This document shows, piece after piece, positions 19,985 through 24,244 of a stretch of DNA of 64,000 nt. The stretch spans positions 62,001-126,000 of the forward strand of contig CAMCVW010000005.1 of the NCBI GenBank assembly GCA_945881915.1, given 5' to 3'. Position numbers and translations under genes: made by a program. The notes under the pieces were generated by a model. It was not told where the DNA came from, ran no database searches, and worked only from the letters and a program-made list of their open reading frames with translations. The stretch comes from Thermoflexus hugenholtzii JAD2 (lineage in GTDB: Bacteria; Chloroflexota; Chloroflexia; Chloroflexales; Roseiflexaceae). Positions within the stretch are counted from its first letter, which is position 1, and each line of letters begins with the position of its first letter.

Positions 19985-21054
19985 TCATGTTGATTGGTGT
20001 GCAGTCACATGAGTGGGTGAATATGAGTATATTGTAATCGTTTTTGCACCGCTTGTGAGGGTCTTTGCGGTGGGAGTGCGGGTTTGGGTGGCATAGAATG
20101 TGGGAATGGGGTATCCGCCACCACTATTCTTGGGTACCGCAGTTGCGACTCGGGTGTTGGTCCGTGCCTTCTGTGTTGCAGTGCGGGCAGGCCGTGTTGC
20201 AGTCCATGTGCGTGTCTGCGATGGCGTTCGTGTCTCGGATGGAGTCAACGTGTCAGTGGCTGGTCCCGGGGTGTCCGTTGGCCCAGTCGACGTAGGTGTG
20301 GACGAGGCAACGGCAGTCGCTGTCGCTGTTTTCGTTCGTGTTTTGGTCGGAGTGGCACCGCCGTCACCGACGACAATCGTGACCTGATTGAGGAAACATG
20401 CATTGTTTTCTGGAGCTTTGGAAACCGAACAATTAAGGAAGTTGGGGTACCCCGCGTAGTCACGAATAAGGCCAAATACACTGTGTATATTCCGGCTTTG
20501 GTAAATCGTGCACGTCTAGTCACGGTCCGTGTCCCGGATGATGCTAATGACGATTCACCAATGCCCCACCGCCATGGGTAATCGATGGTGACAATTGAAC
20601 CTCTGCTTACCGAGGAACAGTTGGCACTGAGCGTCGGGTGTGCTTTGTCCCATCCCGTGTACCCAGCCATGACTCGGTAATTATCCGATTGCTTAGGGTA
20701 CAAAAATGACACGGAACCGGTTTTGCGCTTCGCCCAGCGTTCATCTTGGTTAAACGTGATGTCTGAATCGGTAGGTCTAAACGGATAGCTCTTGATTGCG
20801 CCTTTTTGTAGTTTTTCACCGTGAAGGTAATGATGAGTACATCGTTTACTGCGAGTCGTGTTCGATTCACCGTTGCGCTGACACAACGAGAGGTACGGAC
20901 TGTTCTTTTGTTTTCATTCTGCATATTCAGCAAGGGTTGCTGTAGCTGCCCGTTGCGTCTTGCTGGTGCGCGCTGCGCTGGGTAATTATGGCACGCCGAT
21001 AATCGTGCATACGAAGGCAATAAATACTACTGACCGTAGCGTTAATTGATACAT
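19985..21054 (-). pseudogene. broken paralogue of the amidase-associated module with Thr-rich tail
   Basis: Three frames must be joined to read this gene. An ATG at 21054 with a GAGG site opens a signal-peptide-like 22 residues that stop at a TAA (20986-20988). A second frame carries VNDVLIITFTVKN and breaks at an A5 run (minus strand, 20803-20807). The next frame reads RVMAGYTGWD, YPWRWGIG and FTKAGIYTV and breaks near 20484. The last continues FGLIRDYAGYPNF into a Thr-rich tail ending at 19985. These blocks match, in order, a region of the neighbouring amidase (RVMAGVNDWD, HPWRWSIG, FTKPGTYTV, FGVMKDWIGYP). Each break fits a one-base indel. It was probably a secreted protein arising by duplication; sequencing error in runs is a lesser possibility. 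Confidence 0.75.
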
Positions 21055-21187
21055 GTGCCGCCTCGCTCCGTCTTTTCGCACAGTGTGGCAAGCCAACCCC
21101 GTGCTGCAATCACTACATAGCGTAGTAAATGCAAAGATGCGCCGTTATGATAGTGTGCCCGCAGCGAGACCGTTGCTATATGCACCC

Positions 21188-24100
21188 TCAGCGCGGCCAT
21201 GCTATGGACGCGTTGCTGATGTTGATTCCATCTGTCCAAATGAGCGTCCCTGGAAAAACCGCAACGCCGCGAATGGCCAGTCTATTCACTCGTGGCAGGT
21301 TTGCGGTGGCGCGTATCTCGAATCGTGATCCGATTGGTTGCAATACGCTGAGGGTGCCAGCAGTGCTTCGTATACGCAGCACGAATGACGCATGGTGGGC
21401 GGGGCAGCGCATCAAATACGCCCCTGCAGTGGTGCTTGCCGGTCCCGACAAGATATTCGTGTTGAGGTTATGCGTATAGGACCGAATAGTGGTATCGTCA
21501 GCACCTGCGATAAGCGCAACCGGCACCACCCCACGAAATTGCCAACTCCGGCATAAGGAAGCAAATGCTTGGCTCGTGGTTATCCGACTCCCAGATTGAG
21601 TGGTACCATCGGCCTGGTACGTGACGGGTAGAATGAACCCATTCTGCAGGGGAAGTGTACCGGCAGCGACAACGAGCCTGCCGACTCCATCGCTATTGAT
21701 AAGCGATGTGACGAATCCCGGAACTGCAAGACGCGGTGCTCCCTCACGAAACAAGTTTTTGGTATCGATGCGAACGAGCTGGTGTATTCTCCGTGCGGTA
21801 TCGTGGATGGCAAGTGTGACATTTGTCCCGCTTGCGAGCACACTGGTCGGTACCCCAGTTTGTGCGGTCAGCCAATACCCTGTCTCGCGCAGAGTGCCAT
21901 TGACGAGTCGAAAACGTTGCAGAAAGATATAGTTCGGTGTGTAATTCCCTGCCACATAGACGGTGTCTGGCAGTTGGTCATCGACTGTGAGTACGAGTCC
22001 CGACGTACCTCGTATCAGGATTCCCTGAATCCGTTTGAGGAGTACTGCATCATAGAGGGCGACCTGAGCAGGGCTCCCTGCTTCGAGAACAACGAGCGTA
22101 GTCCCTAGTGCCGCGATGTCTAGGACCGGATTGATGGCTTTTTGCGTACGGATTGAGCTGGTTTTGACAAAAGAAATTGCTACAGGACTACGCGTTGGTG
22201 TGCGCGTCATCGTTGGCGTGTGTGCACCTGTAGTTGCTACCACGGTCTGCCGCGCAGCACTGGTCTGGGTAGCACCTGCATAGCGTTGTGCGGTTTGCTG
22301 GATGGGAATCGCACTTGCGGTGGTGGTTGAGGTTGGGGTAGCACTCGCAGTGTAGGTCGGTTTTCCCGCGGCTGATGCTGCAGTTGCAGTCAATTCACCC
22401 AGTATCGCAGTCTGTGTCAGGCGTGTTTTCGCTGTGGCTGCGATGGCAGTAGCGGCACCTGCGGTCGTGGTCATATGAGCAATCTGTGTCTTTAGCGCAG
22501 GGGGAAGCGTCGGTATTGGGGTTTGCCGCGTGCGGACGGTAATTGTCTTGGGGAAGAGTACACAGGCCGCATACGTTGGACTAGTGCTACATGCATTATC
22601 CGGATACCCAATCCAATCCTTCATGACTCCGAACGAGACCGTATACGTCCCCGGTTTTGTGAAGCTGACACCTCCGCTGATGACACGGGTCTGTCCGGCA
22701 GCCAAAGGGGTCGCACCAATGCTCCATCGCCATGGATGATTTTCGGTGCTACTGACTGGACAGGCAACAGGCTGATTGGCGTATTGTGTGTCCCAATCGT
22801 TCACACCAGCCATCACACGGAAGCGCCCATAGCGATTGCTACTCACACTCGCTTTGGGGAACAACGGAGTCCCGCCTGCGTTTTGCTTCGCCCAGCATTC
22901 ATTCAATTGGTAGACATAACTGTTGTCGCTTACGGGGAACGCAAATGCACCGCCGCTAATCGGTGCATCTGCATATGCATTACGTACGAACATGCGAAAA
23001 ACCACCGGGTCACCGACCATCACTTCGGTATTGGTCACGGTTACCCCTGTGAGCCACTGTTGTGCAGGGGCGGTTCCGACCGCGGCCCGAGCTTTCAGCC
23101 GGATACTCGGCAACAGCGCATACAACGTATCCCCTGGGCAGGCAGTCCCACGGCCAGGAAGCTGCGCATCTCGATGACCAACAAGAGTGTTGAGTGTCAT
23201 CCGTTGATGGGCATAGAAGGCTGTGGCATTGGGTTGGATGCGATGGCGTGTCATCAGATACGCTATCAGGTTGTCGAGTGCAGCCTGGGACTGCTTTGTC
23301 GGAGCCACGCTTTCGAACGTCCCCAACATGGCAATACCGACGGTCCCACGATTAAATCGATAACTATGCGCACCATCAATCACGGTTCCATCAGCCCGTA
23401 ATCCTTGATAGCGTCCTTCGTAAATGACGCCGTTGGGATCGATGAGGAAGTGATATCCGATGTCGCCCCAGTTGTTGCTTTGGGGAAGTGTGTGGTAGCG
23501 CCAGATTTGACGGACGCGTTCTGGCCAGTTACTGCCTGGCCCAGCGTTGGGAGTTGCGGTGTGATGGATGATGAGGTGCGTCGGTTTGGCAATCTCGGCA
23601 TCGGTGGGCATCCAGGTTGCTTCAGTGCTGAGCCCTGCTGAACCGTTAGCATCCCAGCGTTTGACCGTTGTGTCGCCCCACGTAGCGCGTGCAACGATGG
23701 CTGGTTTGGCACCAGCAGAAAGCGGTTCAGTTGCGGCGGGAAGTTCACTCCGGGCTTCGGTTTGATCACGGGTGTCCATGGTCGTGACACGGATAGAGGT
23801 GACGGTCGCGAGGGCTGTGTCGGGCGTAGAGATGCGAATTTGCCATGCTTGGGCGATTGGTTCAACGGTGTAGATGGTGCTGGTTTGGGTCCCTGCAGGG
23901 GCGTCATCCAACAGAAATTCATCTTCATGGGGCACTTCCATCCATTCGCCCCATACTCCATCCTGCTGTGTGATGAGTTCGAGACGCAAAAGGTTTGGAT
24001 CGCCAACCACAGTCCAAGTCAGCTGGATTCCGTTGAAAGCGTGTTCTGGGGACTCTGGGCCAAGCACTATAGGATCTGTGTTGGTTGCTGCGCGACCTGA

Positions 24101-24244
24101 ACTCGTGACATCAATGATGTATGTTTGGGAGCTAATAGGAGGTATTTCTGACGCAGCGACGACTGGAGCATCTGATGCACCAGTCAACCAAGCAGCGAGG
24201 CAGAACAATATTGTGCGTAGCAACGTCAACACGAACGGTTTCAT
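21188..24244 (-). CDS. secreted PGRP/amidase_2 N-acetylmuramoyl-L-alanine amidase, multidomain
   Basis: This 1018-residue exported protein would cleave or bind peptidoglycan. A signal peptide (about 1-30) precedes a beta-rich domain, then a zinc amidase domain at about 195-375: IIHHTATPN, WGDIGYHFLID, GHRDAQLPGRG and the TACPG cysteine ligand are all present. Residues about 395-575 form an uncharacterised module with NECWAK, HPWRWSIG and KPGTYTVSFG, also found in the broken gene next door. An Ala/Thr-rich linker (about 590-690) and a repetitive beta region, possibly a propeller, finish the protein. GAGGG before ATG 24244 sets the start. Function of the last two parts is unknown; sugar or protein binding outside the cell is a guess. 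Confidence 0.93.
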   Translation of the reverse strand: MKPFVLTLLRTILFCLAAWLTGASDAPVVAASEIPPISSQTYIIDVTSSGRAATNTDPIVLGPESPEHAFNGIQLTWTVVGDPNLLRLELITQQDGVWGEWMEVPHEDEFLLDDAPAGTQTSTIYTVEPIAQAWQIRISTPDTALATVTSIRVTTMDTRDQTEARSELPAATEPLSAGAKPAIVARATWGDTTVKRWDANGSAGLSTEATWMPTDAEIAKPTHLIIHHTATPNAGPGSNWPERVRQIWRYHTLPQSNNWGDIGYHFLIDPNGVIYEGRYQGLRADGTVIDGAHSYRFNRGTVGIAMLGTFESVAPTKQSQAALDNLIAYLMTRHRIQPNATAFYAHQRMTLNTLVGHRDAQLPGRGTACPGDTLYALLPSIRLKARAAVGTAPAQQWLTGVTVTNTEVMVGDPVVFRMFVRNAYADAPISGGAFAFPVSDNSYVYQLNECWAKQNAGGTPLFPKASVSSNRYGRFRVMAGVNDWDTQYANQPVACPVSSTENHPWRWSIGATPLAAGQTRVISGGVSFTKPGTYTVSFGVMKDWIGYPDNACSTSPTYAACVLFPKTITVRTRQTPIPTLPPALKTQIAHMTTTAGAATAIAATAKTRLTQTAILGELTATAASAAGKPTYTASATPTSTTTASAIPIQQTAQRYAGATQTSAARQTVVATTGAHTPTMTRTPTRSPVAISFVKTSSIRTQKAINPVLDIAALGTTLVVLEAGSPAQVALYDAVLLKRIQGILIRGTSGLVLTVDDQLPDTVYVAGNYTPNYIFLQRFRLVNGTLRETGYWLTAQTGVPTSVLASGTNVTLAIHDTARRIHQLVRIDTKNLFREGAPRLAVPGFVTSLINSDGVGRLVVAAGTLPLQNGFILPVTYQADGTTQSGSRITTSQAFASLCRSWQFRGVVPVALIAGADDTTIRSYTHNLNTNILSGPASTTAGAYLMRCPAHHASFVLRIRSTAGTLSVLQPIGSRFEIRATANLPRVNRLAIRGVAVFPGTLIWTDGINISNASIAWPR

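Follow-up and report, generated by a model that had tools for sequence, protein, structure and literature searches.

A probable young pseudogene of a solo Ig-like domain protein beside its source amidase in a Roseiflexaceae genome

The 64-kb window, i.e., the whole stretch of 64,000 nucleotides analysed here, carries, next to an intact secreted cell-wall amidase that is the only one of its type in this freshwater bacterium, a broken gene that appears to be the remnant of a real stand-alone gene. Taken as a whole, the evidence makes it highly probable that tandem duplication of an amidase domain gave rise to a solo gene, and that this gene was recently broken to a pseudogene. The broken gene begins with an ATG at 21054 and ends with a stop codon at 19985-19987 of the minus strand, and it reads across three minus-strand frames through a leader, a domain of about 175 aa and a Thr-rich tail. 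Frameshift-aware alignment to an intact ortholog was continuous from window position 21036 to 20012. The features of the locus are as follows.

19985..21054, minus strand: probable pseudogene, whose intact counterparts encode a predicted secreted protein with the domain on its own (frameshift-aware alignment to the intact orthologs of congeners G004 and G008; syntenic intact ORFs)
20989..21054, minus strand: leader, ATG and hydrophobic signal-like stretch MYQLTLRSVVFIAFVCTIIGVP (start position equal to the ortholog starts)
20986..20988, minus strand: lesion 1, in-frame stop TAA (frameshift-aware alignment)
20925..20930, approximate, minus strand: lesion 2, frame change (+1) near 20927 (same at two penalty settings)
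20803..20810, approximate, minus strand: lesion 3, frame change (-1) near 20808 (same at two penalty settings)
20474..20484, approximate, minus strand: lesion 4, frame change (-1) near 20476 (same at two penalty settings)
20360..20897, edges approximate, minus strand: remnant of the Ig-like domain (RTSRCVSATV...TIVVGDG) with the PWRW motif (ortholog identity and tree)
19988..20359, minus strand: Thr-rich tail, 30% Thr (aligned with ortholog tails)
21188..24244, minus strand: secreted amidase, intact and 1018 residues long with the ATG at 24244 as its start (PF01510, E 1e-19, 71.6 bits, cut-off 26)
22535..23056, minus strand: source domain within the amidase, residues 397-570 (alignment with the solo copy)

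The sequence-only reading had described this region as a duplicate of an amidase module lying beside its source, and our searches agree with it. When the amidase was compared with the 64-kb window by tblastn, the only meaningful score besides the amidase itself fell on the broken gene (33% identity over 115 aa, E 1.5e-13), and a search of its own genome with the amidase domain returned, at E<=10, only the domain itself and the broken gene (E 3.9e-14). The domain of the broken gene is 33-40% identical to residues 397-570 of the adjacent Amidase_2 protein; these edges, defined by the solo copy, lie close to the residues of about 395-575 given earlier. The Amidase_2 (PF01510) catalytic domain was absent from the frames of the broken gene and from the intact solo ortholog. 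The signal-like leader and the Thr-rich tail, which had also been pointed out before, match those of the intact orthologs, with a mean leader hydropathy of 2.75 over 15 residues as compared to 2.6-2.7 in the orthologs.

The duplicate was thought to have once stood alone, and it still does so in sister species: comparison with close genomes revealed an intact, single-frame solo ortholog of 358-367 aa in four of ten congeners (G001, G004, G006 and G008). The congener contigs come from metagenome-assembled genomes of freshwater Roseiflexaceae or Chloroflexi, and where they reach, their gene order is that of the window (tsaD, amidase, solo gene, rfbB, rluA-like gene, phosphoesterase gene and gyrA). 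The solo orthologs, such as those of QWQY01000093.1, CANHPK010000014.1 and CAIZHO010000482.1, share neighbours, leader, domain and Thr-rich tail with the window copy, but unlike it they are intact in one frame. Over the domain they are 66-69% identical to the window copy, and the amidase domains of the genus are 38-43% identical to it. At the solo site between amidase and rfbB, G002 and G010 carry a long gene of 893-896 codons, which in G002 encodes the domain and two Laminin_G_3 stretches, and G005 shows the start of a long gene at which the contig ends. The amidase directly adjoins rfbB in G003, and the contig of G009 ends after the amidase. The domain had been called mobile or duplicated; beyond tandem duplication and one second locus, mobility finds no support here, as the solo and long paralogs occupy one conserved amidase/rfbB site, bar one extra copy elsewhere in one congener. 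A second locus of G005 (G005:C333, L036:2-5740, plus strand) holds a further domain copy in a 1913-codon frame, which combines TSP3, a HYDIN-type Ig domain (just below cut-off), the domain, CARDB and Laminin_G_3. Upstream of the solo gene, the window (21090-21130, TACTAC...GTAGT) and all four intact congeners (L028-L032, TACTA...TAGTA) show an imperfect inverted repeat; it is possibly an operator, or else a product of chance.

The reading frame is indeed broken, as had been read from the letters, yet by four lesions (one stop and three frame changes) and not by three. The break placed at 20986 is a stop codon (TAA, 20986-20988), and the frame change lies about 60 bases further on, near 20927. 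Two conserved residues differ as well: Cys stands in place of a Trp that the intact members of the solo clade conserve (SRW to SRC), and Arg in place of the DECW Cys, which is invariant in all other aligned (intact) rows. One could argue that the living organism has an unbroken gene and that the four lesions are sequencing or assembly errors, as the draft genome consists of 63 contigs and the frames between the lesions are well conserved. We regard this as quite unlikely, because one lesion is a stop codon without any indel, the indel sites have no long homopolymers (at most five T), and the conserved Trp and Cys were changed too. Moreover, no break was seen in the seven flanking genes, which span about 10 kb from gyrA to the gene that follows tsaD, and the chance of all four lesions falling in the broken gene is about 8e-5, assuming one uniform error rate across flanks and gene. 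A fifth congener, G007, carries a far more decayed solo copy at the same site, with at least nine frame changes and five stops; its lesions and those of the window fall on the same codon at two sites under some settings only (stop at 23; frame change at 194, where the sizes differ), too uncertain an agreement to be read as common ancestry of the lesions. Given the intact syntenic orthologs, the unbroken flanks and the further decay in G007, it is most likely that the window copy is no sequencing artefact but a genuine stand-alone gene turned pseudogene in the recent past. The persistence of the start codon and of long fragments (139, 222 and 176 codons between stops) might also suggest that the fragments are still expressed and functional, e.g., through programmed frameshifting or as a regulatory RNA; this is very improbable, since three frame changes and a stop would all require recoding and every intact relative uses a single frame.

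The origin of the copy was traced in a domain tree, in which all 20 copies of the genus formed one clade (support 100/100), with sub-clades of solo genes (100/98), long genes (100/99) and genus amidases (98/93). As the solo, long and genus amidase domains share one fully supported clade, the duplication is genus-specific, and as solo and long genes in a single clade were not rejected (p-AU 0.208), a single event at the genus base is enough to explain them. Judged from the identity of 33-40% and the split at the genus base, the duplication is old and the breakage alone recent. The idea that a fragment of the amidase domain was copied recently and never formed its own gene draws on the position of the copy directly downstream of the amidase, but it has next to no probability and is refuted by the intact orthologs that relatives carry at this site, by an identity to the window's own amidase domain of only 33-40%, by the grouping of the window copy with the intact solo genes of sister species (100/98), and by a leader and tail that align with those of the solo genes. 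Over the domain and within its segments, the window copy gave dN values of 0.21-0.24 with dS saturated, which suggests that selection acted on it until lately; the amidase domain between the same genomes gave 0.12-0.14. The branch estimate of w was 0.154 for the window copy as compared to 0.107 for G008, and because dS is saturated, these values point weakly to relaxed selection on the window branch.

The genome of the window has a single Amidase_2 match, as against five to seven or more in five others of its order. The region of the amidase after the domain (window 21188-22530) showed dN values of 0.56-0.58 and about 41% identity to congeners, and the catalytic part, with dN of about 0.1 and about 80% identity, changes far more slowly. 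In G007 the post-domain region of the amidase is lost and the protein stops just after the domain.

The domain was detected in 55 of 60 related genomes (E<=0.01), almost all of which have a single copy, in an open frame of about 600-1130 codons, and it is present in nearly all sampled Chloroflexales genomes, mostly in one amidase each. Profile iteration found it once per order-level amidase examined. It is preceded by Amidase_2 in the scanned amidases of Chloroflexales and other Chloroflexota, and a profile of 18 diverse members found relatives in 73 of 301 Chloroflexota genomes, in amidases as well as in lipoprotein-like proteins with FlgD-type Ig domains. Distant relatives are thereby spread over the whole phylum. 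Chloroflexota amidases (PF01510) bear a homologous domain with a PWRW/PYRW motif after Amidase_2, fused to the enzyme, whereas the window copy is without any catalytic domain. A 505-codon frame of the same genome, which bears FlgD-type Ig domains, also ends in a distant relative of the domain (G000:C59:213-602; L087:171-1685, minus strand), and frames of 403-450 codons resembling it recur across the order.

The protein-family search proposed earlier did not place the domain: no Pfam or NCBIfam model covers it, and the scans gave only sub-threshold PKD, BatD and DUF11-type scores, PKD reaching 15.9 of the curated Pfam cut-off of 23.5 and BatD 14.7 of 24.1. The Pfam scans gave no CARDB match to the domain, PDB sequence searches with the domain gave nothing useful, and a literature search on it found no paper. 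An AlphaFold2 model built from nine sequences is a beta sandwich of medium confidence (mean pLDDT 67.6, pTM 0.68), and its best solved structural match was the CARDB domain of Pyrococcus PF1109 (3idu, E 1.5e-3, TM 0.60 by target length). We infer from this model a CARDB/DUF11-like Ig sandwich. The predicted beta sandwich would be common to the domain and to the CARDB (PF07705), DUF11 and BatD-like Ig domains, and BatD and PKD give weak sequence scores, but CARDB does not match at the sequence level, and all Pfam scores lie below the curated cut-offs. The role of the domain is suggested to be accessory, probably envelope-binding, because it steadily follows Amidase_2, a view that draws on domain company and the medium-confidence model.

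Together, these comparisons suggest a simple course of events. In the ancestor of the genus, the Ig-like domain after the catalytic part of the amidase would have undergone tandem duplication into the interval between amidase and rfbB. From one copy a separate secreted gene would have arisen, with signal leader, domain and then a Thr-rich tail, and in a second branch the same site would have come to encode a longer protein with the domain and LamG-type lectin domains. In the window species, purifying selection probably maintained the solo gene over most of its past, and the stop and the frame changes would then have broken it recently. The intact solo protein is predicted to be exported and may bind a glycan or a protein of the envelope, like the accessory domain of the amidase, for which binding is presumed; its loss may be tolerated because the amidase keeps its own domain copy. 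A more specific proposal, which we hold as doubtful, is that the solo protein in its intact form acts in trans as a partner of the only Amidase_2 enzyme. It would then be a liberated targeting domain that either competes for the enzyme's binding sites or extends them, and these freshwater lineages, with their small genomes, would lose it repeatedly as their envelope becomes simpler. What the locus records is a gene duplication of the ordinary kind and, more recently, the loss of the gene. It offers a case in which a domain separated from its enzyme to form an independent gene, which some species of one genus then lost, and it draws attention to an Ig-like domain that is widespread in Chloroflexota amidases and is without a model in the copies of Pfam and NCBIfam searched.
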